Assembly (NCBI GenBank): GCA_964017185.1
Contig: OZ024877.1
Span: forward strand, 62,367,211-62,431,210
DNA length: 64,000 bases
From: Rugalucina vietnamica
Lineage: Eukaryota > Mollusca > Bivalvia > Lucinida > Lucinidae
Reading direction: 5' to 3'
In this document: one piece after another, positions 4,950 to 50,846 of the stretch
Layout of the letters: each line of letters opens with the position of its first letter
How positions within the stretch are numbered: the stretch's first letter is position 1
Notes under the pieces: model-generated
The model's database searches: none
Seen by the model: the letters and a program-made list of their open reading frames with translations, nothing else
Told to the model about the DNA's origin: nothing
Translations under genes and position numbers: made by a program

Positions 4950-6356
4950 TTTAGCTCCGGAGTTAGTAAGTTATTTGGCGCCTAGGGATCTCCATCGTCG
5001 GGCAGCTTACTGAATCTGTGAGTCCTGGTTTTTGATTCATCAGGATGTTTATCATGATTTATTTGTTTGTTCTTGATGATTCATTTACTAGTTAGAGATT
5101 CACCACGAGGACCGAAGAACTAACTAAATGTTATGAACCACTGCAGAAGCTGAGGGTGAGGTTACGGCCGTGTAAAATCGATTTCGGAACCTGCATTTTA
5201 TGGTGACTTGGTTTACAAATTAAAGAAACTTAAAGGAATAAATGATTTTTCTCTTCAGTTCGGAAAAATCATATCACGTTACAGACGTATAGGTTATAAC
5301 TTGAATGTTATGCGACAGTCTGCATGCTTAGTTTTTAACCCAATCATGGTTGATAACTATGCTGCCTTCTTTAATTGCACGCCGGTGGGTCGGGCGTCAG
5401 ACTCTATGATGGCCCCGACTTAAAGCTATTCATTTTAGTTGGTTGGGGCCTGAGCTTCTTGTCTGTTGCTTGGCCCACCGGGGTCCAACTGGTGTTTTTC
5501 CTTTGCTCCGGAGTTAGTAGGTTATTCGGCGCCCAGGGATCTCCATCGTCGGGCAGCTTACTCAATCTGTGAGTCCTGGTTTTTGATTCATCAGGATGTT
5601 TATCATGATTTATTTGTTTGTTCTTGATGATTCATTGACTAGTTAGAGATTCACCCCGAGGACCGAAGAACTAACTAAATGTTGTGAACCACTGCAGAAG
5701 CTGAGGGTGAGGTTAGGTACCTGTAAAACCGGTTTAAGCCCGCCAGTAACTTTGTGTTACTGATCGTTCCAAGTCGATACTTCTGTAGTGGTTCTTTTTG
5801 TTTTATGTCTTGGTGTTTAAAATTTTTTTGTGCTGTTGGCGCCTTATGCATGTTTTCATATTTTTAGTTAAGTTAAGGTAACTGAGTGGCCACCTATTGG
5901 GAAAATAGCTGCTCATTCGGCTTACGATATGTTTCATGGTATAAGTACCTGATTGTTAGTTTGGTTTTTTCCCACCTCGGTTTTTGGAGTGGGAATCTTT
6001 TTCTGATTGCGCCTTTTCCTGATCTTTGCCTACTTGTACCTTTTTAAACCCGCCAGTAACTTTGTGTTACTGATCGTTCCAAGTCGATACTTCTGTGGTG
6101 GTTCTTTTTGTTTTATGTCTTGGTGTTTAAAATATTTTTGTGCTGTTGGCGCCTTATGTATGTTTGCATATTTTTAGTTAAGTTAAGGTAACTGAGTGGC
6201 CACCTATTGGGAAAATAGCTGCTCATTCGGCTTACGAAATCTTTTCATGGTATAAGTACCTGATTGTTAGTTTGTTGTTTTCCCACCTTGGTTTTTGGAG
6301 TGGGAGTCTTTTTCTGATTGCGCCTTTTCCTGATCTTTGCCTACTTGTACTTTTTT
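4950..6356 (+). mobile_element. Penelope-like retroelement fragment inside F2
   Basis: A terminal non-coding unit (4950-5183) is followed by the C-terminal end of the RT-linked ORF (5184-5423, ending in the same stop region as 50224), then the complete terminal unit (5424-6040), then a further tandem partial tail (6044-6356) ending in CTACTTGTAC. It splits the right arm of the surrounding foldback element, so it inserted after that element was in place. Confidence 0.65.
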
Positions 6357-16290: not shown

Positions 16291-16671
16291 TAAACTTAAT
16301 TAACGTGAAGAAGGGATTGCTCTTATATTAAGTAACAAAATTCGTTACAAGCAGCATTGCTCTTGCACCAAAAACGCTGTTAGCAACGTCATACCAAGAA
16401 ACGTTACGTTGTAGGCGTTCTAATACCCTAAAACTGAAGTACTACTTGCATCTCTTGAACATCATCATTATACAATTTTCTAAAATTTGATAATTATAAC
16501 TAAGATTGAGAGGCGTCTTAGTGTTTCATAACACGTTCACATTCAGATATCTAAATGCCTCAAAGTTATGATGTATATAAGAAATGTCATATGCAATGAT
16601 GGTATTCCTTGGCATTTAATTACTACTTGTCTTCAGGCCGTGTCGTTGATTAGATATTTCATTTTTTTCAG

Positions 16672-17216
16672 GGCGTATGGCTATAAAGAGCTGGGTATTA
16701 GCGAGATGAAAATCAACCTGGATTCCAGAGGATTACTGATATGGGAGCCTGGAATTGTCATGTCTACAGTATGTGAAGTCAGCATCGCAAAATATCCCTT
16801 TGACAAACAACACTGTGCAATACGAATAATGTCCTGGATGCACACTAACAAAATGATTCACGTGCACGTAGAGAATCGTAAGGTTGATATCAAAAATTAT
16901 TACCCGAACGGAGAGTGGGATCTTACTGACACTCTGGTCCGGGAGTTCTACCCAGAGGACGGCTCCTATAATGACGGGGAGATTCTACCGGGGGCTGAGG
17001 CAATACTGATGCTGCATAGAAAACCTACGTTCTATATACTGAGTACAGTACTGCCTATATCATTGTTATCACTGCTCAACCTGCTGGTGTTCCTGCTGCC
17101 GGCCTCTACCGGGGAGAAAATGACATTAGCTGTAACCGTGCTACTGTCGTATACCGTGTTCATGAGTGTGGTTAACGAGATCATGCCAAAGACGTCTAGC
17201 AGCGTTTCCATTCTAG
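16672..17216 (+). CDS. Nicotinic-receptor-like subunit, Cys-loop to M2 exon
   Basis: The 545-bp exon follows a TTTTTTTCAG acceptor and ends at a GTAACG donor. It encodes the Cys-loop (C, 13 residues, C; with YPFDKQHC), a loop B Trp (SW), the loop C region without the vicinal CysCys pair of alpha subunits, and M1 (FYILSTVLPISLL). M2 follows, with Glu at -1' and Leu at 9' (GEKMTLAVTVLLSYTVF). Glu at the inner ring suggests a cation channel. Lack of CysCys marks it as non-alpha, so it would need a partner subunit for a normal agonist site. The exon fuses what are several exons in vertebrates. The downstream intron carries the full-length RTE-like LINE. Confidence 0.92.
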
Positions 17217-17284
17217 GTAACGTCCTAATGTACTGATTGTCTCGTATTTCAAATCATACTGTTCTTCATGTGGTGTAGATCTGT

Positions 17285-20200
17285 GGTCAGGTCAGTTTAA
17301 CTGCTACTGTAACATGTAATCAGTACTACCTGTTGTCATGCGGTGCAGATGGGGCTCGTTAGCCTTGGAAGGCAACTCATCTAGGAGTTAAGCTAGTTCT
17401 CTACACAAAAATCTAGCTGGGCAGGGGGAACTCATTAGTCTTGGTTGACAGTCCTCCTAGGAGTTTACAGGTCTCTAAACAAAACCTAAGAAAGGGTAGA
17501 TGGAGCTCTTCAGCTGTGGCCAGCAATTCATCTAGGAGAAGGAACCTCCAAAATCAAACCTGTGTGTCTGGATATGCCTAGTCCAGATATGCAAAGACTG
17601 TTTCGGTAGATGGAGCGGAAGAAATCACCTGATTCAACGGTTCAGAAAGCGATACAGCAACATGTTGTGGAACATGCAGAGCGTGACAAGGCACTAAAGA
17701 TGTTACGGTCATCCACAGCATCCAAACCCAACTCCAGACGTCTTGACCTGTGTCTTGCCTCTGGGCGCAGCTGGGCGAGGACTAGAGAGTGAGGTTGACG
17801 TTGCGCACCTCTTCCTCACTATAATCCAATTTCATAGCGCATGTCATCTTATTTCTCAACACACAAGCACTTGCATACACAACAATTTCATCACACTTGC
17901 ACCCACATACCTACAAAGTCCTGTGGCGATGGGCGAGTGGCGAAGCAGCAGGTGTAGGACACACTGGGAGCTGTAGTTGCAGACCTGCACACAGGCGGCT
18001 CAGTTCTAATGGTCGTTTTCTGTGAGGAGAAGCAGTAAGCAGAATTCGGCAGTCGGCTGAGCGACTGAGCAGACCTATTTAGGACCGCACTGCTCACCCC
18101 CGTAGCATGGGGAAGGGGCTAGAAAAGGTGCCCTAAACAATTGCCTGCTTCAAACCCCCTGGCTGGTTAACCGCGATCAGCGGGGATCCCCTTAAGCGGT
18201 CGAAATACAAAGAAAAAAGCTAGAGTAATCCCCTTACGGATTGGCGCATGGAATGTGCGTACTTTAATGGACAATGCTGGGTCAGATAGACCACAGCGTA
18301 GAACGGCCCTTGTGGGCAGAGAACTTGGGAGGTATGATATACAGATAGCTGCATTGAGTGAGACTCGGTTCGCAGATGTTGGGGAGATCAAAGAAGTTGG
18401 TGCTGGATACACCTTCTTCTGGAGTGGACGCAAAAGTGAAGAGAGGCGTGAAGCAGGAGTTGGCTTTGCCATCAAAACAGAACTTGTTGGTAAGCTGTCA
18501 GGATTGCCAAAAGGCATTAATGACCGTCTAATGACATTGAGACTTCCTCTGTCAGGCAATAAACATGCAACTATTGTCAGTGCTTATGCACCCACAATGA
18601 CCAATCCAGATGAGGTCAAGGACAAGTTCTATGATGACCTAGACAATGTTATTTCTGCAACACCCCGTACAGACAAGCTTATCCTTCTTGGCGACTTTAA
18701 TGCCAGAGTGGGTACAGACCACCAGACCTGGGAAGGAGTTATAGGTCCAGAAGGGGTTGGAAAGTGCAACAGCAATGGTCTCTTGCTTCTCAGGAAGTGT
18801 GCTGAACATGACCTTCTAATCACCAACACAGTCTTCCGTCTACCTAATAGGAACAAAACATCCTGGATGCATCCCCGTTCCAAACACTGGCATCTCATAG
18901 ACTATGTCATAGTGCGGAGAACAGACAGGCAGGATGTTAAAGTGACAAAGACTATGTGTGGTGCAGACTGCTGGACAGATCATAGACTGGTTGTCAGCAA
19001 ACTCAACCTAAGAATACAGCCTGCGAGGCGACCTCAAGGCAAGAAAGCTCCTAAGAGACTGGATGTCTCAAAGCTGAATAAAGACAGCATGAGACAAGAT
19101 TTCTTAACAGACATTTGCAACCAACTGGATGCAATGAATCTCAGTTCAGAGGACCCCGAAGAAAACTGGACAGTTTTCCATAAAACAGTTCTTTCTTCAG
19201 CTGCAAGCACCTTAGGCCATCCATCTCGCAAACATCAAGACTGGTTTGATGAGAATGATGACAAAATTCAGAGGCTTCTTGAAGAAAAGCACCGATTGCA
19301 CAAGGCACATCAAGATGATACTAGCTCAGTATCAAAGAAAGCAGCCTACAGCAACATTTGTAAGACAGTTCAGACCAAGCTTAGGGACATGCAAGATTCC
19401 TGGCTGAGGAAGAAAACAGAAGAAATTCAGTCTTTTGCGGATAGAAAGGACATGAAGAAATTTCATGATGCACTGAAAACCATTTATGGTCCAAAGAGTT
19501 CTGGAGCCACCACATTGCTCAGTGCAGATGGAAACACTCTTCTCACAGATAAAGAAGCTATCTTGGAAAGGTGGGCAGAACACTTCAATAGTGTGCTTAA
19601 TCGACCATCAAGCATCAATGAGGATGCAATCGACAGACTTCCACAGATAGAGTGCAATGTTCTGTTAGATGAATTTCCTACCGTTACGGAAACAAGAAAA
19701 GCAGTTCAACAACTATCATCTGGCAAAGCCCCAGGTGCAGATGCAATTCCTGCCGAAGTTTACAAGGCTGGGGGGCTACCCATGGCAGAGAAACTGACAG
19801 AGTTGTTTCACTGTATGTGGAGAAAGGAGGCTATCCCACAAGAATTTAAGGATGCATCCATAATCCACCTATACAAGCGGAAAGGAAATCCTCAAGTCTG
19901 TGACAATCACAGAGGCATCTCCCTCCTATCAATTACTGGGAAGATACTTGCAAAAATTCTGTTGAATCGTCTGAATGCTCATCTTGATCAGACGGGACTT
20001 ATCCCAGAAAGTCAATGTGGATTCAGAAAAGACAGAGGGACAATAGACATGATCTTCACAGCAAGACAGCTTCAGGAGAAATGCCAAGAACAGAATGTAG
20101 ATCTATACATGACGTTTGTTGACCTCACCAAAGCTTTTGACACTGTTAGTCGTGATGGACTCTGGAAAATCATGGCCAAGTTTGGCTGTCCACCCAGATT

Positions 20201-21481
20201 CATAGCAATGGTGCGGCAGTTTCATGATGGCATGCAGGCACGTGTGCAAAATGATGGAGAGTTCTCTGAACCATTTGAAGTAACAAATGGGGTCAAACAA
20301 GGCTGTGTTCTGGCACCAACACTGTTCAGCATGATGTTTTCTGCCATGCTTATGGATGCTTTTCAGGACAGTGACACTGGTTTTCCAATCAGGTACCGTT
20401 TTGATGGCAACATATTCAACCTCAGAAGGTTGCAAGCCAAAACTAAGGTCCAGACTGATGTGCTAGATGAGCTCCTCTATGCAGATGATATGGATAAGAA
20501 TGCCAGCACAGAGGCAAAAATGCAAAGAGCCATGGATCAAGTCTCACAGTCATGTGATAACTATGATCTCACAATCAGCACAAAAAAGACAGAGGTTGTA
20601 CACCAACCAGCGCCCGGAAAGCCATATAATGAACCAACCATCACTGTGAATGGGCAAAAACTGAAAGTTGTTGACAAGTTCACCTACCTGGGAAGCACTC
20701 TCTCCAGAGCAGTGCATATTGATGATGAGATCACTGCCAGAATTGCAAAGGCTAGTGTGGCATTCGGACGACTCCGTGCAAATGTCTGGGAGCGAAATGG
20801 AATCAAGCTTGACACCAAGCTGAAAGTCTACAAGGCTGTGGTACTGCCAACCCTCTTGTATGCATGTGAGACCTGGACAGTATACCAACGCCATGCAAAG
20901 AGACTTAACCATTTCCACTTAAGCTGTTTGAGAAAGTTGTTAAAAATCAAGTGGCAGGACAAGATTCCAGACACAGAGGTCCTGACGAAAGCAGGGATGC
21001 AAAGCATGCATACAGTCTTAAAGCTAGCACAGCTAAGATGGACTGGCCATGTTATAAGAATGCCTGATGCGCGACTTCCAAAGAAAGTTTTCTATGGAGA
21101 ACTACAGGAGGGAAAGCGCTCTCAAGGTGGCCAGAAGAAACGCTACAAAGACACCCTCAAAGCCTCTCTGAAGGATTTCGAAATACCAATGGGGTCCTGG
21201 GAACAGACTGCACAGGAGCGATCAAAGTGGCGAGGTCTCATCAACAAAGGGGCAGCTCTTTATGAAAAGAAGAGAATCTGTGAAGCTGAAAGAAAGCGAA
21301 GAGAGCGCAAAGCCAAAACAAATGTGCCACCATCAGACTCTATGACATTGACTTGCTCTACTTGCAACCGACAGTTTAGAGCCAGAATTGGCCTAGTCAG
21401 CCATCAAAGAACTCACCAACACACATCAGCACTATTCAAGAAATAATGATGGTCTTTCTCATTAGTGAGAGACGAACTATC
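17285..21481 (+). mobile_element. Full-length RTE-like LINE, copy 1
   Basis: The limits are set by an 8-bp target-site duplication, AGATCTGT, at 17277-17284 and 21482-21489. The other copy (37117-41314) is colinear from end to end. The layout is a roughly 970-bp 5' region, a single long ORF (18255-21446) and a very short 3' end, GTGAGAGACGAACTATC, with no poly-A. The 5' region holds a 60-codon ORF (17610-17792) conserved in the other copy, with no recognisable domain. The element lies in the last intron of the receptor gene in sense orientation. Confidence 0.92.
18255..21446 (+). CDS. RTE-like LINE ORF2: endonuclease-reverse transcriptase with C2H2 finger
   Basis: The intact ORF of about 1063 residues encodes the protein for target-primed reverse transcription. 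Endonuclease motifs are SETRF (35-39), GDFNARVG (146-153) and TDH (241-243). Reverse-transcriptase motifs are DLTKAFDTV (623-631), GVKQGCVLAP and YADD (742-745). A C2H2 zinc finger (CSTC...HQRTH, about 1034-1054) ends the protein. The listed start is GTG; the first ATG is four codons later. The catalytic Asn motif (RIGAWNVRTL) begins seven codons further upstream in the same open frame, which runs back to a TAA near 18167 without an ATG, so the true start is unclear. Clade is judged from RT and tail similarity; RTE is likely, not certain. Confidence 0.88.
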   Translation: MRTLMDNAGSDRPQRRTALVGRELGRYDIQIAALSETRFADVGEIKEVGAGYTFFWSGRKSEERREAGVGFAIKTELVGKLSGLPKGINDRLMTLRLPLSGNKHATIVSAYAPTMTNPDEVKDKFYDDLDNVISATPRTDKLILLGDFNARVGTDHQTWEGVIGPEGVGKCNSNGLLLLRKCAEHDLLITNTVFRLPNRNKTSWMHPRSKHWHLIDYVIVRRTDRQDVKVTKTMCGADCWTDHRLVVSKLNLRIQPARRPQGKKAPKRLDVSKLNKDSMRQDFLTDICNQLDAMNLSSEDPEENWTVFHKTVLSSAASTLGHPSRKHQDWFDENDDKIQRLLEEKHRLHKAHQDDTSSVSKKAAYSNICKTVQTKLRDMQDSWLRKKTEEIQSFADRKDMKKFHDALKTIYGPKSSGATTLLSADGNTLLTDKEAILERWAEHFNSVLNRPSSINEDAIDRLPQIECNVLLDEFPTVTETRKAVQQLSSGKAPGADAIPAEVYKAGGLPMAEKLTELFHCMWRKEAIPQEFKDASIIHLYKRKGNPQVCDNHRGISLLSITGKILAKILLNRLNAHLDQTGLIPESQCGFRKDRGTIDMIFTARQLQEKCQEQNVDLYMTFVDLTKAFDTVSRDGLWKIMAKFGCPPRFIAMVRQFHDGMQARVQNDGEFSEPFEVTNGVKQGCVLAPTLFSMMFSAMLMDAFQDSDTGFPIRYRFDGNIFNLRRLQAKTKVQTDVLDELLYADDMDKNASTEAKMQRAMDQVSQSCDNYDLTISTKKTEVVHQPAPGKPYNEPTITVNGQKLKVVDKFTYLGSTLSRAVHIDDEITARIAKASVAFGRLRANVWERNGIKLDTKLKVYKAVVLPTLLYACETWTVYQRHAKRLNHFHLSCLRKLLKIKWQDKIPDTEVLTKAGMQSMHTVLKLAQLRWTGHVIRMPDARLPKKVFYGELQEGKRSQGGQKKRYKDTLKASLKDFEIPMGSWEQTAQERSKWRGLINKGAALYEKKRICEAERKRRERKAKTNVPPSDSMTLTCSTCNRQFRARIGLVSHQRTHQHTSALFKK

Positions 21482-21844
21482 AGATCTGTACTTCAAAGAG
21501 CTTAAATGTAATTTCTCGTGTACATTATTGCATTAAGCTGATTAAGACATTTTGCAAATCATTTTGCCTTCAATTGCAGGACATAAACGAACGTATTATT
21601 GTCTGCGATGTTCGCCAATTAATTAAACGTTTGTCTTACTGTAATTGAGCTCAGCCATTAAAATGCAGCTTAATACTTACAGCGTCGCCTACTCTTGAAT
21701 CTTAAATTCAATTAAAGACAATCTTTTCATTACACTTAAATAATTTCGTCAAAATATATCATCTAGTTCACATACATTATTTGGTTGTCAATAAGCATAA
21801 CTGACATTTGTATTTTGTATCAGACTGTATTTTATCGTTTTCAC

Positions 21845-21915: not shown

Positions 21916-21935
21916 GCTATAATTGTGCATTTCAG

Positions 21936-22423
21936 CTGTCTATCTGACGTTCCTACTGTGTATGAGTGGTATATCTGTAGCCTCCACGGTGTGGGTGCTG
22001 TATGTCCACCATAAGGAGTTTATGCCCAGATGGTCAAGACACTTCCAGGAAGTTCACGAAACGAAATTCCACCGCGTGTTTAGGCCCAAGGATAAGTCGT
22101 GTAACAACAACAGTGACGGCGCTAGTCTAGCACGTCCTAAGACTGTGATCAACGGGACGTGCCCGTCACCTACCCCTAGTGTCAATCAAAGACTATTGGA
22201 AATGAAGGAAACCGAAGCAACTCTCGACATATTAGAGGACGCGGAGGACACACGGGACTGCGCTAAACGGTTGTGTGATATTATCTGTGATCATGGTAAA
22301 CCTGGAACAGACGGGGTCAGGCAGCACCCTTCGGGGAAAATGGATAAAATATTGTTCTGGTTGGTCGGTGTTCTCACGGCTATAGCTACTCTTACAATGC
22401 TTGTGCTTCTAACTACAGAGTGA
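21936..22423 (+). CDS. Nicotinic-receptor-like subunit, last exon (M3, cytoplasmic loop, M4)
   Basis: It follows a GTGCATTTCAG acceptor in phase 1. It encodes M3 (YLTFLLCMSGISVASTVWVL), VHHK, a short M3-M4 cytoplasmic loop of roughly 90 residues with acidic and polar sequence, M4 (KILFWLVGVLTAIATLTMLVLL) and a TGA stop at 22421-22423. The four recognised exons sum to 1188 bp, a multiple of three. The loop is short compared with many nicotinic subunits. No poly-A signal was confirmed downstream. Confidence 0.9.
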
Positions 22424-29590: not shown

Positions 29591-30204
29591 CCAACAGATA
29601 AAAAAACCTTTTCATAGTTACTGTAACACAAAGTAAGAAATATACATACACCAACGCATTGTCATTGTCATAGCAATCTTTCGCGGCTATTTTTATTTCG
29701 GTTAGTAGCAAGCTATCGTAGTTGGTTAAGGAAGTCACCTCGACCTAAACCATTGTCTTAGATCGATAAGTAACAAGCTACCGTGGTGGGAATAAGGAAA
29801 TCATATAGAACTAAACCACAATATTCTTAGTCTTAGATCGGTCAGTAGCAAACTATCCTGGTTGGGTTACGAAAGTCAAATAGACCTAAGCCATTGTCTT
29901 AGATCGTTTAGTAACAAACTAGCGTGGTGGGTTTAAGGAAGTCAAATAGACCATAACCATTATCTTACATCGGCCAGTAGCAAGCTACCGTGGTGGGTTT
30001 AAGGAAGGCATAAGAAAAGATATTAAGATAAAGTTTATTTCAATGCAGTAGGTCAATGGCCGTTGAGCATATACTACAATTACACTCATAACCACATGCA
30101 ATGTGAAGTGTCAAATAAAGTCATGTAGACATAAAACAACCATTGTCTTAGATCGTTTAGTACCAACCTACCGTAGTGGGGTTAGGGTTAGGGGGTCCAA
30201 ATGG

Positions 30205-30701
30205 TATTTTTCTTTTGCTCCGGAGTTAGTAAGTTATTCGGCGCCCAGAGATCTCCATCGTCGGGCAGCTTACTGAATCTGTTGAGTCCTCGTTTTTGAT
30301 TCATCAGGATGTTTATAATGATTTATCTGTTTGTTCTTGATGATTCATTGACTAGTTAGAGATTCACCACGAGGACCGAAGAACTAACGAAATGTTATGA
30401 ACCACTGCAGAAGCTGAGGGTAAGGTTATGGTACTTCTGGGGTGGTTCTTTCGTTTTATGTCTTGGTGTTTAAAATATTTGTGCTGTTGGCGCCTTATGT
30501 ATGTTTTCATATTTTTAGTTAAGTTTATGTAACTGAGTGGCCACCTATTGGGAAAATAGCTGCCCATTCGGCTTACGATATGTTTTCATGGTATACGTAC
30601 TTGATTGTTAATTTAGTTTTTATCCCATCTCGGTTTTTGGAGTGGGGATCTTTTTCTGATTGCGCCTTTTCCTGATCTTTGCCTACTTGTACCTTTTTAT
30701 A
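30205..30701 (+). mobile_element. Penelope-like element terminal unit within minisatellite
   Basis: It runs from GCTCCGGAGTTAGTAAG to CTACTTGTACC with a deletion of part of the middle (after GGGTAAGGTTATGG). It is inserted between minisatellite units. Confidence 0.7.
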
Positions 30702-30901
30702 TGAAGTCATAAATAGCAAGCTAGCGTGGTGGGTTTATGGAAGTCATATAGACATAAACTAGAGTCTAAGATCGGTCTGAAGCAAGCTACAGTGTTGGGA
30801 TTAAGAAAGTCATAAAGACCTAAACCATTGTCTTAGATCGATTAGTAACAAGTCTTACGAATATGAAAATTCGTAACTAAGAAATGATGCAAAGCTTGAA
30901 A

Positions 30902-30982
30902 AAATCCCACGTCCCGGATGGGATTCGAACCCGGACCGCCGGGGTAGAAATCCAATGCTCTAACCACTGAGCCAAAGAGTCG
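30902..30982 (-). other. tRNA-Arg-like sequence in LTR (left copy)
   Basis: On the minus strand, A-box TGGCTCAGTGG and B-box GGTTCGAATCC are spaced as in a tRNA. The middle GCATTGGATTTCTA closely resembles the anticodon arm of tRNA-Arg(UCU). The acceptor stem does not pair, so it is not a working tRNA gene. A T6 run about 15 nt past the tRNA-like 3' end could act as a Pol III terminator. Confidence 0.75.
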
Positions 30983-31030
30983 ACTCCCTGACGCAGTATG
31001 TCAGAGATTGTACATATGTGATACATTGTA

Positions 31031-31046
31031 TCGAATAGCTGTGCTA
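31031..31046 (-). promoter_or_regulatory. TATA-like box in TRIM LTR (left copy)
   Basis: The LTR reads CTATAAATAGC on the minus strand, about 60-70 bp from the start of the LTR and upstream of the tRNA-like segment. The same motif is present in the right LTR. It is a candidate Pol II promoter by sequence only. Confidence 0.45.
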
Positions 31047-31183
31047 TTTATAGAAGCTACGCATCATAGATAATCTCGAATGAATGAGTGGTGCAATGGG
31101 ACATAACACACCCCCATTTCGAGGAAGTAATCATTTATGATTACGAGAATGTCATTATAATGACTAAATGACTCAAATGGTCC

Positions 31184-31201
31184 ATCCCGGACGAGCCCCC
31201 A
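31184..31201 (-). other. Primer-binding site, tRNA-Pro type
   Basis: TGGGGGCTCGTCCGGGAT on the minus strand is an 18-nt perfect match to the complement of the tRNA-Pro 3' end including CCA. It directly abuts the 5' LTR of the TRIM. Confidence 0.9.
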
Positions 31202-31250
31202 TCTTACGAATATGAAAATTCGTAACTAAGAAATGATGCAAAGCTTGAAA

Positions 31251-31331
31251 AAATCCCACGTCCCGGATGGGATTCGAACCCGGACCGCCGGGGTAGAAAT
31301 CCAATGCTCTAACCACTGAGCCAAAGAGTCG
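31251..31331 (-). other. tRNA-Arg-like sequence in LTR (right copy)
   Basis: Identical to the segment at 30902-30982, 349 bp further on. Confidence 0.75.
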
Positions 31332-31910
31332 ACTCCCTGACGCAGTATGTCAGAGATTGTACATATGTGATACATTGTATCGAATAGCTGTGCTATTTAT
31401 AGAAGCTACGCATCATAGATAATCTCGAATGAATGAGTGGTGCAATGGGACATAACACAAGCAACCGTGGTGAGGTTAAGGAAGTCATATAGACCTAAAC
31501 CATTGTCTTAGATCGATTAGTAACAAGCAACCGTTGTGAGGTTAAGGAAGTCATAAAGACCTAAACCATTGTCTTAGATCGATTAGTAACAAGCAACCGT
31601 GGTGAGGTTAAGGAAGTCATATAGACCTAAATCATTGTCTTAGATCGATTAGTCACAAGCAACCGTGGTGAGGTTAAGGAAGTCATAAAGACCATAACCA
31701 TTGTCTTAGATCCATTAGTTACAAGCAACCGTGGTGAGGTTAAGGAAGAGGTTAAGGAAGTCATAAGTCATATAGACCTAAACCATTGTCCTAGATCGAT
31801 AAGTGACAAGCAACCTTGGTGAGGTTAAGGAGGTCATATAGACCTAACCATTGTCTTAGATCGGTAAGTAGCAAGCTACCGTAGTGAAATTACGGAAGTC
31901 ACATAGACTA

Positions 31911-37107: not shown

Positions 37108-37116
37108 AAGCTAGAT

Positions 37117-40100
37117 GATAGTTCGTCTCTCACTAATGAGAAAGACCATCATTATTTCTTGAATAGTGCTGATGTGTGTTGGTGAGTTCTTTGATGGCTG
37201 ACTAGGCCAATTCTGGCTCTAAACTGTCGGTTGCAAGTAGAGCAAGTCAATGTCATAGAGTCTGATGGTGGCACATTTGTTTTGGCTTTGCGCTCTCTTC
37301 GCTTTCTTTCAGCATCACAGATTCTCTTCTTTTCATAAAGAGCTGCTCCTTTGTTGATGAGACCTCGCCACTTTGATCGCTCCTGTGCAGTCTGTTCCCA
37401 AGACCCCATTGGTATTTCAAAATCCTTCAGAGAGGCTTTGAGGGTGTCTTTGTAGCGTTTCTTCTGGCCACCTTGAGAGCGCTTTCCCTCCTGTAGTTCT
37501 CCATAGAAAACTTTCTTTGGAAGTCGCGCATCAGGCATTCTTATAACATGGCCAGTCCATCTTAGCTGTGCTAGCTTTAAGACTGTATGCATGCTTTGCA
37601 TCCCTGCTTTCGTCAGGACCTCTGTGTCTGGAATCTTGTCCTGCCACTTGATTTTTAACAACTTTCTCAAACAGCTTAAGTGGAAATGGTTAAGTCTTTT
37701 TGCATGGCGTTGGTATACTGTCCAGGTCTCACATGCATACAAGAGGGTTGGCAGTACCACAGCCTTGTAGACTTTCAGCTTGGTGTCAAGCTTGATTCCA
37801 TTTCGCTCCCAGACATTTGCACGGAGTCGTCCGAATGCCACACTAGCCTTTGCAATTCTGGCAGTGATCTCATCATCAATATGCACTGCTCTGGAGAGAG
37901 TGCTTCCCAGGTAGGTGAACTTGTCAACAACTTTCAGTTTTTGCCCATTCACAGTGATGGTTGGTTCATTATATGGCTTTCCGGGCGCTGGTTGGTGTAC
38001 AACCTCTGTCTTTTTTGTGCTGATTGTGAGATCATAGTTATCACATGACTGTGAGACTTGATCCATGGCTCTTTGCATTTTTGCCTCTGTGCTGGCATTC
38101 TTATCCATATCATCTGCATAGAGGAGCTCATCTAGCACATCAGTCTGGACCTTAGTTTTGGCTTGCAACCTTCTGAGGTTGAATATATTGCCATCAAAAC
38201 GGTACCTGATTGGAAAACCAGTGTCACTGTCCTGAAAAGCATCCATAAGCATGGCAGAAAACATCATGCTGAACAGTGTTGGTGCCAGAACACAGCCTTG
38301 TTTGACCCCATTTGTTACTTCAAATGGTTCAGAGAACTCTCCATCATTTTGCACACGTGCCTGCATGCCATCATGAAACTGCCGCACCATTGCTATGAAT
38401 CTGGGTGGACAGCCAAACTTGGCCATGATTTTCCAGAGTCCATCACGACTAACAGTGTCAAAAGCTTTGGTGAGGTCAACAAACGTCATGTATAGATCTA
38501 CATTCTGTTCTTGGCATTTCTCCTGAAGCTGTCTTGCTGTGAATATCATGTCTATTGTCCCTCTGTCTTTTCTGAATCCACATTGACTTTCTGGGATAAG
38601 TCCCGTCTGATCAAGATGAACATTCAGACGATTCAACAGAATTTTTGCAAGTATCTTCCCAGCAATAGATAGGAGGGAGATGCCTCTGTGATTGTCACAG
38701 ACTTGAGGATTTCCTTTCCGCTTGTATAGGTGGATTATGGATGCATCCTTAAATTCTTGTGGGATAGCCTCCTTTTTCCACATACAGTGAAACAACTCTG
38801 TCAGTTTCTCTGCCATGGGTAGCCCCACAGCCTTGTAAACTTCGGCAGGAATTGCATCTGCACCTGGGGCTTTGCCAGATGATAGTTGTTGAACTGCTTT
38901 TCTTGTTTCCGTAACGGCAGGAAATTCATCTAACAGAACATTGCACTCTATCTGTGGAAGTCTGTCGATTGCATCCTCATTGATGCTTGATGGTCGATTA
39001 AGCACACTATTGAAGTGTTCTGCCCACCTTTCCAAGATAGCTTCTTTATCTGTGAGAAGAGTGTTTCCATCTGCACTGAGCAATGTGGTGGCTCCAGAAC
39101 TCTTTGGACCATAAATGGTTTTCAGTGCATCATGAAATTTCTTCATGTCCTTTCTATCCGCAAAAGACTGAATTTCTTCTGTTTTCTTCCTCAGCCAGGA
39201 ATCTTGCATGTCCCTAAGCTTGGTCTGGACTGTCTTACAAATGTTGCTGTAGGCTGCTTTCTTTGATACTGAGCTAGTTTCATCTTGATGTGCCTTGTGC
39301 AATCGGTGCTTTTCTTCAAGAAGCCTCTGAATTTCGTCATCATTCTCATCAAACCAGTCTTGATGTTTGCGAGATGGATGGCCTAAGGTGCTTGCAGCTG
39401 AAGAAAGAACTGTTTTATGGAAAACTGTCCAGTTTTCTTCGGGGTCCTCTGAACTGAGATTCATTGCATCCAGTTGGTTGCAAATGTCTGTTAAGAAATC
39501 TTGCCTCATGCTGTCTTTATTCAGCTTTGAGACATCCAGTCTCTTAGGAGCTTTCTTGCCTTGAGGTCGCCTCACAGGCTGTATTCTTAGGTTGAGTTTG
39601 CTGACAACCAGTCTATGATCTGTCCAGCAGTCTGCACCACACATAGTCTTTGTCATTTTAACATCTTGCCTGTCTGTTCTCCGCACTATGACATAGTCTA
39701 TGAGATGCCAGTGTTTGGAGCGGGGATGCATCCAGGATGTTTTGTTCCTATTAGGTAGACGGAAGACTGTGTTGGTGATTAGAAGGTCATGTTCAGCACA
39801 CTTCCTGAGAAGCAAGAGACCATTGCTGTTGCACTTTCCAACCCCTTCTGGACCTATAACTCCTTCCCAGGTCTGGTGGTCTGTACCCACTCTGGCATTA
39901 AAGTCGCCAAGAAGGATAAGCTTGTCTGTGCGGGGTGTTGCAGAAATAACATTGTCTAGGTCATCATAGAACTTGTCCTTGACCTCATCTGGATTGGTCA
40001 TTGTGGGTGCATAAGCACTGACAATAGTTGCATGTTTATTGCCTGACAGAGGAAGTCTCAATGTCATTAGACGGTCATTAATGCCTTTTGGCAATCCTGA

Positions 40101-41314
40101 CAGCTTACCAACAAGTTCTGTTTTGATGGCAAAGCCAACTCCTGCTTCACGCCTCTCTTCACTTTTGCGTCCACTCCAGAAGAAGGTGTATCCAGCACCA
40201 ACTTCTTTGATCTCCCCAACATCTGCGAACCGAGTCTCACTCAATGCAGCTATCTGTATATCATACCTCCCAAGTTCTCTGCCCACAAGGGCCGTTCTAC
40301 GCTGTGGTCTATCTGACCCAGCATTGTCCATTAAAGTACGCACATTCCATGCGCCAAACCGTAAGGGAATTACTCTAGCTTTTTTCTTTGTATTTCGACC
40401 GCTTAAGGGGATCCCCGCTGATCGCGGTTAACCAGCCAGGGGGTTTGAAGCAGGCAATTGTTTAGGGCACCTTTTCTAGCCCCTTCCCCATGCTACGGGG
40501 GTGAGCAGTGCGGTCCTAAATAGGTCTGCTCAGTCGCTCAGCCGACTGCCGAATTCTGCTTACTGCTTCTCCTCACAGAAAGCGACCATTAGAACTGAGC
40601 CGCCTGTGTGCAGGTCTGCAACCACAGCTCCCAGTGTGTCCTACACCTGCTGCTTCGCCACTCGCCCATCGCCACAGGACTTTGTAGGTATGTGGGTGCA
40701 AGTGTGATGAAATTGTTGTGTATGCAAGTGCTTGTGTGTTGAGAAATAAGATGACATGCGCTATGAAATTGGATTATAGTGAGGAAGAGGTGCGCAACGT
40801 CAACCTCACTCTCTAGTCCTCGCCCAGCTGCGCCCAGAGGCAAGACACAGGTCAAGACGTCTGGAGTTGGGTTTGGATGCAGTGGATGACCGTAACATCT
40901 TTAGTGCCTTGTCACGCTCTGCATGTTCCACAACATGTTGCTGTATCGCTTTCTGAACCGTTGAATCAGGTGATTTCTTCCGCTCCATCTACCGAAACAG
41001 TCTTTGCATATCTGGACTAGGCATATCCAGACACACAGGTTTGATTTTGGAGTTTCCTTCTCCTAGATGAATTGCTGGCCACAGCTGAAGAGCTCCATCT
41101 ACCCTTCCTTAGGTTTTGTTTAGAGACCTGTAAACTCCTAGGAGGACTGTCAACCAAGACTAATGAGTTCCCCCTGCCCAGCTAGATTTTTGTGTAGAGA
41201 ACTAGCTTAACTCCTAGATGAGTTGCCTTCCAAGGCTAACGAGCCCCATCTGCACCGCATGACAACAGGTAGTACTGATTACATGTTACAGTAGCAGTTA
41301 AACTGACCTGACCA
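37117..41314 (-). mobile_element. Full-length RTE-like LINE, copy 2
   Basis: It is flanked by a 9-bp target duplication, AAGCTAGAT on the + strand, at 37108-37116 and 41315-41323. It is colinear with 17285-21481 and nearly identical, including the 5' region and short 3' end. Its 5' end faces the TSP1-C1q gene, whose first ATG is about 780 bp away, in divergent orientation. Confidence 0.92.
37152..40343 (-). CDS. RTE-like LINE ORF2, copy 2
   Basis: This is an intact ORF of the same length as 18255-21446, differing at about ten of 1063 residues (for example the GG to VG change near residue 506 and E to D near the C-terminus). All endonuclease, reverse-transcriptase (YADD) and zinc-finger motifs are preserved. 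Both copies are therefore candidates for active or very recently active elements. The frame also extends upstream of the GTG through a W-N-V-R-T motif without an in-frame ATG, as in copy 1. Confidence 0.88.
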   Translation of the reverse strand: MRTLMDNAGSDRPQRRTALVGRELGRYDIQIAALSETRFADVGEIKEVGAGYTFFWSGRKSEERREAGVGFAIKTELVGKLSGLPKGINDRLMTLRLPLSGNKHATIVSAYAPTMTNPDEVKDKFYDDLDNVISATPRTDKLILLGDFNARVGTDHQTWEGVIGPEGVGKCNSNGLLLLRKCAEHDLLITNTVFRLPNRNKTSWMHPRSKHWHLIDYVIVRRTDRQDVKMTKTMCGADCWTDHRLVVSKLNLRIQPVRRPQGKKAPKRLDVSKLNKDSMRQDFLTDICNQLDAMNLSSEDPEENWTVFHKTVLSSAASTLGHPSRKHQDWFDENDDEIQRLLEEKHRLHKAHQDETSSVSKKAAYSNICKTVQTKLRDMQDSWLRKKTEEIQSFADRKDMKKFHDALKTIYGPKSSGATTLLSADGNTLLTDKEAILERWAEHFNSVLNRPSSINEDAIDRLPQIECNVLLDEFPAVTETRKAVQQLSSGKAPGADAIPAEVYKAVGLPMAEKLTELFHCMWKKEAIPQEFKDASIIHLYKRKGNPQVCDNHRGISLLSIAGKILAKILLNRLNVHLDQTGLIPESQCGFRKDRGTIDMIFTARQLQEKCQEQNVDLYMTFVDLTKAFDTVSRDGLWKIMAKFGCPPRFIAMVRQFHDGMQARVQNDGEFSEPFEVTNGVKQGCVLAPTLFSMMFSAMLMDAFQDSDTGFPIRYRFDGNIFNLRRLQAKTKVQTDVLDELLYADDMDKNASTEAKMQRAMDQVSQSCDNYDLTISTKKTEVVHQPAPGKPYNEPTITVNGQKLKVVDKFTYLGSTLSRAVHIDDEITARIAKASVAFGRLRANVWERNGIKLDTKLKVYKAVVLPTLLYACETWTVYQRHAKRLNHFHLSCLRKLLKIKWQDKIPDTEVLTKAGMQSMHTVLKLAQLRWTGHVIRMPDARLPKKVFYGELQEGKRSQGGQKKRYKDTLKASLKDFEIPMGSWEQTAQERSKWRGLINKGAALYEKKRICDAERKRRERKAKTNVPPSDSMTLTCSTCNRQFRARIGLVSHQRTHQHTSALFKK

Positions 41315-41323
41315 AAGCTAGAT

Positions 41324-49384: not shown

Positions 49385-50846
49385 AAGGTACAAATTGCGA
49401 TGGGTACAAATTGCGCACCTCTCGTAGCTGATTTATTTTTATACTGCTACGAAAGAGATTTCATGGGTTCTCTTAACCATGATAATCAAGCTGATGTTAT
49501 CGAGGCTTTTAATTCCACATCTAGGTACCTCGATGACCTTTTGAACATTGACAACCCTTATTTTGAAGGTATGGTCAATCAAATTTATCCACCTGAACTT
49601 CAGTTGAACAAAGCTAATAGCTCAGATACCGAAGCCCCCTTTTTAGATCTACATCTTTCTGTTGCAAATGGATTTGTTTCTTCTAAAATTTATGATAAGC
49701 GCGATGACTTTGATTTTGATATAGTAAATTTTCCTTTTTTGGATGGTGACGTTCCTCGTCGTGCTTCTTATGGTGTAAACATTTCGCAACTTATTAGGTT
49801 TGCTAGAGTCTGCAATCATGTTACAGACTTCAACGCTCGAAATAAATGTTTAACGGCAAAACTTCTCCAACAGGGCTATCGGTATCATAAACTTCGAAAA
49901 ACCTTTTCTAAATTTTATCGTAGACACTATGAATTGATTTCCAAATATAATGTTGGGTTAAAGACACTTTTAAGTGAGGGCCTTTCGGAACCTGAATTTT
50001 ATGGTGACTTGGTTTACAAATTAAAGAAACTTAAAGGAATAAATGATTTTTCTCTTCAGTTCGGAAAAATCATATCACGTTGCAGACGTATAGGTTATAA
50101 CTTGAATGTTATGCGACAGTCTGCATGCTTAGTTTTTAACCCAATCATGGTTGATAGCTATGCTGCCTTCTTTAATTGCACGCCGGTGGGTCGGGCGTCA
50201 GGCTCTATGATGGCCCCGACTTAAAGCTATTCATTTTAGTTGGTTGGGGCCGGAGCTTCTTGTCTGTTGCTTGGCCCACCGGGGTCCAACTGGTGTTTTT
50301 CTTTTGCTCCGGAGTTAGTAGGTTATTCGGCGCCCAGGGATCTCCATCGTCGGGCAGCTTACTCAATCTGTGAGTCCTGGTTTTTGATTCATCAGGATGT
50401 TTATCATGATTTATTTGTTTGTTCTTGATGATTCATTGACTAGTTAGAGATTCACCACGAGGACCGAAGAACTAACTAAATGTTGTGAACCACTGCAGAA
50501 GCTGAGGGTGAGGTTAGGTACCTGTAAAACCGGTTTAAGCCCGCCAGTAACTTTGTGTTACTGATCGTTCCAAGTCGATACTTCTGTAGTGGTTCTTTTT
50601 GTTTTATGTCTTGGTGTTTGAGGTTTTTTGTGCTGTTGGCGCCTTATGTATGTTTTCATGTTTTTGGTTAAGTTAAGGTAACTGAGTGGCCACCTATTGG
50701 GAAAATAGCTGCTCATTCGGCTTACGATATGTTTCATGGTATAAGTGCCTGGTTGTTGGTTCGGTTTTTTCCCACCTCGGTTTTTGGAGTGGGAATCTTT
50801 TTCTGATTGCGCCTTTTCCTGATCTTTGCCTACTTGTACCTTTTTA
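49385..50846 (+). mobile_element. Penelope-like retroelement, longest copy in the window
   Basis: The 5'-truncated RT ORF (49400-50224) is followed by the complete terminal non-coding unit to CTACTTGTACC (50846). The region 50180-50300 can form nested stems (CCGGTGGGTC with GGCCCACCGG, and GGCCCCGAC with GTTGGGGCC). TAGTTAG (about 50442) and CTAACTA (about 50470) form another stem around GGACCGAAGAA. It lies in intron 3, sense orientation. Confidence 0.7.
49400..50224 (+). pseudogene. Reverse-transcriptase fragment, Penelope-like
   Basis: The ORF of 274 residues begins at the RT motif MGTNCAPLVADLFLYCYE, includes the catalytic YLDD box, then APFLDLHLS and a long C-terminal part rich in aromatic and basic residues (YGVNISQLIRFARVC). 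The N-terminal half with the first catalytic aspartate is missing, so it is non-functional. The Q-G-MG-C-P motif style and the repeated terminal units suit Penelope-like elements, but no GIY-YIG endonuclease is present to confirm. Shorter copies of its C-terminal end are at 1735-2012 and 5208-5423. Confidence 0.65.

Follow-up and report, generated by a model that had tools for sequence, protein, structure and literature searches.

A young Helenus-type TRIM with a tRNA-like unit in its LTRs and a candidate Gmr1-like helper in the same bivalve genome

Miniature LTR retrotransposons (TRIMs) with tRNA-like LTRs were named Helenus by Kojima in 2024; the families were proposed from consensus sequences, measure 311-1263 bp and include 51 from bivalves, spread over five pteriomorph orders (PMC10886601). 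Transcription of these elements by Pol III (TRIMp3) is presented in that paper as unproven, and a Gypsy element is suspected as the animal helper from likeness in the primer-site region (PMC10886601). A search of the literature from 2022 on for Helenus together with TRIM, retrotransposon or tRNA returned Kojima 2024 alone. A further group, the Cassandra-like TRIMs that have TATA boxes and lack the 5S part, has been proposed as possible precursors of Cassandra (PMC10853983).

Here we analysed a 64-kb stretch of bivalve genomic DNA (the window), in which a sequence-only reading had reported a miniature LTR retrotransposon whose LTRs carry a tRNA-like Pol III unit. Every structural part of that description is present: identical 255-bp repeats with zero differences between the two, an 18-nt tRNA-Pro primer site, a purine tract, and A and B boxes followed by T6 in each LTR (Table 1). 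The directly repeated sequence is identical over 30853-31110 and 31202-31459, and the internal part comprises 93 bp including the primer site, its purine-rich end GAAATGGGGGTG adjoining the 3' LTR in the sense of the element. The longest stop-free stretch in the 605 bp is 58 codons. No further copy was detected in the window by blastn.

Table 1. Features of the element and of its insertion site
Feature	Position	Strand	Basis
TRIM (Helenus-type), 605 bp	30853..31457	-	repeat comparison and copy comparison
5' LTR, 256 bp, TGTTATG...CGTAAGA	31202..31457	-	
3' LTR, 256 bp, identical to 5' LTR	30853..31108	-	
Primer-binding site, 18/18 to tRNA-Pro 3' end	31184..31201	-	
Purine-rich tract CTCGAAATGGGGGTG ahead of 3' LTR	31109..31123	-	
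A box, 5' LTR	31313..31323	-	
B box, 5' LTR	31270..31280	-	
T6 (Pol III terminator-like), 5' LTR	31248..31253	-	
CTATAAATAG, 5' LTR	31393..31402	-	
A box, 3' LTR	30964..30974	-	
B box, 3' LTR	30921..30931	-	
T6, 3' LTR	30899..30904	-	
CTATAAATAG, 3' LTR	31044..31053	-	
Target duplication CAAG, left copy	30849..30852	.	
Target duplication CAAG, right copy	31458..31461	.	
66-bp tandem array, split by the TRIM insertion	30715..31908	.	

The array units that flank the element differ from the 66-bp unit at 6/66 positions on the left and 1/66 on the right. The 66-bp repeat occurs in several blocks (29698-30010 and 30715-31908), and the array is also broken, at 30192-30698, by a repeat family that elsewhere carries a SECIS-like RNA element. 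This RNA element is located at 1987-2054, 5398-5465 and 50199-50266 on the plus strand, with a broken copy at 43163-43111 on the minus strand; it scores above the gathering score of Rfam SECIS_1, has the AUGA/AAA/GA core and lies within an interspersed repeat. The copy at 50199 overlaps the stop of a 274-aa ORF (49400-50224) for which no Pfam match was found. Among the literature matches listed, judged by title and the start of the abstract, nothing on point was found for SECIS elements in repeats. The window also contains two LINE copies, 17281-21482 (+) and 37116-41317 (-), that are 99.3% identical over 4202 bases and each encode an endonuclease-RT frame of 1063 aa; the protein cluster nearest to this frame has 2422 members. 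The first of these copies is situated between nicotinic-receptor-like frames at 16568-17236 and 21923-22423, the latter just under the Pfam cut-off; three of the ten matches to the nAChR exon are named, Mytilus edulis (73%), Potamilus (68%) and the gastropod Lottia (50%), and on this exon the host is identified as a bivalve.

Copies of the element were searched for in the genome (1.09 Gb in 47 contigs). At least 46 matches with 87-100% identity were found, a lower bound because 40 of 1550 first-look candidates were scored, and the exact 23-nt junction between the LTR and the form-1 primer site (described below) occurs 130 times (64 + 66), with none in the control. Two sets of copies were compared. 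Set 1 comprises 36 of the 46 matches, all of them single copies; the window copy itself and nine places that lie within three arrays are left out, and the set leans towards close relatives of the window copy. Set 2 was drawn from 40 of the 130 junction sites, hand-picked from 100 listed and none of them in set 1; all are form 1 by construction, and 26 that aligned end to end were counted, whereas 14 were dropped as truncated, rearranged, older or in arrays. Target duplications differ between dispersed copies in both sets. Tandem LTR-internal-LTR arrays also occur, with three LTRs in L051, five in L052 and four in L053. A pattern scan gave no matches in viral contigs and six prokaryotic matches in genome contigs, with 17-21 nt alike around the pattern.

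The comparison of copies moved the ends of the element. The base preceding GTTATG is T in all 36 single copies of set 1 and, when that T is assigned to the LTR, a duplication of at least 4 bp flanks 33 of the 36. The exceptions are L015, L021 and L032; L021 is probably an array member, since another primer site comes next. In set 2, such a duplication flanks 23/26 copies (exactly 4 bp in 20, 5 bp in 3), and the other three are preceded by a purine tract (two copies, in arrays) or by a run of G (one). The invariant T and the 4-bp duplications define an LTR of 256 bp, an element spanning 30853-31457 and the duplication CAAG. The 5-bp duplication of the sequence-only reading is thus present as a match, ACAAG, the fifth matching base of which is due to chance.

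No difference separates the two LTRs of the window copy, and the same holds for 14/36 other copies of set 1 (15/37 rows with the window copy; median 0.39%, maximum 2.7%). LTR-LTR mismatches are likewise zero in 13/26 copies of set 2 (median 0.2%, maximum 4.3%, gaps uncounted). The very recent insertion proposed from the identical LTRs agrees with these values, and a search for multiple genomic copies with differing duplications, suggested in the same reading, produced them, albeit with duplications of 4 rather than 5 bp. The window element belongs to a non-autonomous LTR retrotransposon with many copies in this genome and is one of the young ones.

Both LTRs contain an A box (TGGCTCAGTGG), a B box (GGTTCGAATCC) and T6. 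These are the only pairs of A and B boxes 25-75 nt apart on either strand of the 64 kb, and 60 windows simulated with a first-order model contained no such pair. Of the 37 5' LTRs compared (set 1 and the window copy), all have an identical B box, 34 an identical A box and 35 an identical T6. In set 2, the 5' and 3' LTRs, respectively, retain the A box in 25/26 and 26/26, the B box in 25/26 and 24/26, and at least T4 in 26/26 and 25/26. Because the copies are closely related, this likeness partly reflects common descent. Per-site variation, computed on set 2 plus the window copy, is 0.6% in T6, compared with 2.8-4.9% just before it and 3.1-3.4% after, so that T6 stands out from its surroundings. 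The low variation of the A box (0.3-0.7%) is not specific to the box, given that the entire stretch of LTR positions 98-161 is equally quiet (0-0.7%); the B box varies at 1.0-3.7%, the upper value being due to a single copy without a B box.

The tRNA-like unit reaches 26.2 bits with the Rfam tRNA model, under the gathering score of 29, and, of five eukaryotic tRNAs typed from recall for comparison, is closest to Arg-TCT (52/74 columns), followed by Lys-TTT (50/75). The tRNA-Arg(UCU) origin proposed earlier is a plausible but weak label. The folding energy of the unit is ordinary relative to shuffles (z -0.27) and its minimum-energy fold contains no cloverleaf, which points to a Pol III promoter rather than to a functional tRNA. 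A functional tRNA was rejected also because ARAGORN finds none in the window and because the relaxed score of 35 falls inside the relaxed background scores among those listed. Judged from its sequence, the LTR is likely to be used by Pol III.

The primer site TGGGGGCTCGTCCGGGAT starts at 31201 on the minus strand, adjoins the LTR and is unique in the window at up to 5 mismatches. It corresponds at 18/18 positions, CCA included, to the 3' ends of tRNA-Pro genes of the same genome; the tRNA-Pro genes found end in ATCCCGGACGAGCC(C), which together with CCA yields the site in the window. Among the 37 copies of set 1 plus the window, 24 carry form 1 of the site, 11 carry TGGGGGCTCGTCGGAGAT (form 2) and two carry variants. 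A pattern for the 3' part of tRNA-Pro, which covers both endings and fixes the T-loop letters, matches 22 places in the genome. By a simple motif, 16 of these have an intact-looking 5' part and three a changed one; one is masked upstream and two are LTR-element sites (L054 and L075). ARAGORN, run on six of the 22 loci, identified tRNA-Pro in four and none in L054 or L075. The form-1 ending is present at 21 of the 22 places and, with a single change, at the remaining one (L075, an old LTR remnant), and the form-2 ending at none. Two tRNA-Pro isodecoders behind the two forms were accordingly set aside as unsupported, within the limits of a pattern with fixed T-loop letters.

A tree of the copies was built without the primer site, comprising 24 copies of form 1 and 12 of form 2 (one variant included), with one row omitted. 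Resolution of the tree is poor, with good support for 3 of 33 inner branches, and the forms are scattered over it: 11 changes are needed, compared with about 10 on average after shuffling, and 434 of 500 shuffles gave as low a count. Well-supported branches require at least three changes of form, and L015, the sister of the window copy (support 98/92), differs from it in form. Rewriting of the site by the primer would give such a scatter, as would recombination between copies. Form 2 may be inherited and become form 1 whenever the tRNA copy wins. In the old LTR remnant at about 9562-9693 of L076 (the same place as L075), which resembles the final 90 bp of the LTR of the TRIM (about 83%), the primer site TTGAACCCGGG extends the complementarity to tRNA-Pro beyond the usual 18 nt, as if the tRNA copy had overrun its usual stop.

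The genome contains 241 tRNA-Pro sites with no G immediately after them, partly in TRIM copies. We read 20 of these, chosen outside the junction list. Eighteen belong to two related families with CGTAACA and a 4- or 5-nt spacer before the site (10 and 8, respectively), and two, L134 and L140, belong to neither; the LTR end is established for the first CGTAACA family only. One copy of this family, G000:C5, was read in separate stretches; its LTRs measure about 820 bp and start with TGTTATGT. This copy makes up the second unit of an array with three LTRs and outer flanks CTAT/CTAT, in which the first unit contains short frames only. In Gmr1 elements, the integrase precedes the RT. The same order, with Gypsy-type domains, is found in the 925-residue frame of G000:C5, namely, integrase domains at 58-230, RT at 552-710 and RNase H at 799-903. 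Its Gag, a 760-residue frame, contains a SCAN domain (PF02023, 2.7e-11), and SCAN in Gag ties the copy to Gmr1-like Gypsy elements, with which this domain is linked (PMC3424704, PMC4131045). The TRIM and G000:C5 agree in the first eight LTR bases (8/8) and in six of the last seven (CGTAAGA vs CGTAACA), and have in common the primer site and the 4-bp length of the duplication; no longer shared stretch was found beyond these short ends and the primer site. The proteins that move the TRIM are likely to be supplied by a Gmr1-like Ty3/Gypsy element within this genome, and G000:C5 is a candidate for the larger LTR element with matching ends and a tRNA-Pro site that had been proposed as a check. Among 120 listed of 5251 matches to the candidate RT, those named include records from lucinid clam symbionts (77-83%) and a coral (72-73%); the symbiont records may hold host DNA.

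Taken as a whole, the explanation that we consider probable is that the TRIM is transcribed by Pol III, primed by tRNA-Pro and moved in trans by a Gmr1-like Gypsy element. Pol III would start just upstream of the A and B boxes of the 5' LTR, at times pass the first T6 and end at the T6 of the 3' LTR; because T6 is present in both LTRs, genomic RNA would require one such read-through. The predicted RNA would be about 440 nt long and carry the same stretch of about 90 nt at either end. Its packaging and reverse transcription would take place in trans, with tRNA-Pro as the primer, for which the site is observed and the use predicted. The purine tract would then start second-strand synthesis, and integrase would insert the TRIM with the observed 4-bp duplication. 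The exact form-2 site in 11/37 copies, with 0/22 tRNA-pattern places to match it, counts against this explanation. Alternatively, as in ordinary TRIMs, the TATA box could direct Pol II to make the genomic RNA, and the tRNA-like unit would be a SINE relic or the source of a short side product that ends at the first T6; we regard this as possible but somewhat unlikely. The T6 of the 5' LTR should indeed halt Pol III early, TATAAATA is present in both LTRs in 37/37 rows of set 1 plus the window, TATAWAWR occurs in 23/26 (5') and 21/26 (3') LTRs of set 2, and Cassandra-like TRIMs without the 5S part have a TATA box 48 nt from the LTR end (PMC10853983). However, the background of TATAWAWR in the window is 0.17 per 255 nt and strand, or one LTR-sized stretch in six, and in set 2 plus the window the box varies at 3.0-3.7% per site, between the 4.1-4.5% of the sequence upstream and the 2.2-2.4% of that downstream, which at this depth gives no hint of constraint. 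A loose initiator-like TCACAT about 31 nt downstream of the TATA box belongs to a class of matches that occur 5.6 times per LTR length and departs from the full initiator consensus, and neither AATAAA nor ATTAAA is found in the LTR. Of the earlier proposal that both polymerases transcribe the element, the Pol III part is backed by the A and B boxes and T6, whereas the backing for Pol II stops at the TATA motif.

The mobilising element could also be another tRNA-Pro-primed element outside the Gmr1-like families. Such a source is conceivable, given that L134 and L140 belong to neither family and 20 of 241 sites were read, but we regard it as somewhat unlikely, as LTR ends, duplication length and primer site all match the one Gmr1-like copy examined. 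Tandem arrays such as L051, L052 and L053 are what might be expected if the TRIM were a chance tandem duplication of a SINE, the case that, along with a single genomic copy, the sequence-only reading had named against itself; two-LTR copies at dispersed sites, which have a primer site and a purine tract and are flanked by differing 4-bp duplications, exclude the single-copy case and refute the SINE duplication. A broader reading retains Gmr1-like mobilisation and combines both promoters: the TRIM would have a TATA box for Pol II, close to where such a box usually lies, and in addition a tRNA unit for Pol III, would be moved by a Gmr1-like SCAN-Gypsy, and would have its site overwritten by the primer so that the two forms reappear across the tree. 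This combination is doubtful in our estimate; a TRIM with both a TATA box and a Pol III unit would be of interest if transcription data agreed.

Compared with the described systems, the TRIM is of the Helenus kind, an assignment made by the published description rather than by consensus sequence. All testable features of that description were found: a non-coding element of 605 bp, boxes A (TRGCY, YGG) and B (GGTTC) in each LTR, a primer site after the 5' LTR and a purine tract before the 3' LTR, and a 4-bp duplication (33/36 and 23/26 copies). Helenus elements, as described, share with it the tRNA-derived A and B boxes in the LTR, the primer site and the purine tract, as well as 4-bp duplications in the animal families and tRNA-Pro among the bivalve primers, and the Helenus element LTR-11_DR also forms tandem arrays, as does the TRIM in L051-L053 (PMC10886601). 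The main text of the Helenus paper (PMC10886601) contains no occurrence of 'TATA', whereas the TRIM described here has a TATA box. The Gypsy partner of Helenus was proposed from primer-site likeness, whereas here a Gmr1-like copy has matching LTR ends. Cassandra of plants is similarly a TRIM with a piece of a Pol III gene in its LTR and forms tandem arrays, but the piece is 5S rRNA rather than tRNA and the primer site is TGGTATCAGAGC (PMC7215508). The earlier designation as an animal counterpart of Cassandra is thus apt, although its novelty is forestalled by the publication of Helenus (PMC10886601). The biv-TRIM is likewise a bivalve TRIM, but, in its published description, a canonical primer site was not identified and the tRNA likeness noted concerns the inner domain (PMC6934838). 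tRNA-derived SINEs have A and B boxes and a T run as well; they move by target-primed reverse transcription without LTRs or a primer site, whereas the TRIM has LTRs, a primer site and the 4-bp duplications of the integrase route. With many near-identical copies, a candidate helper and a primer site matching the host tRNA, the family makes both Pol III use and the helper of Helenus testable. The kind is already known; what this locus adds to Helenus is a young, well-documented family with corrected ends, a candidate helper and scattered forms of the primer site.
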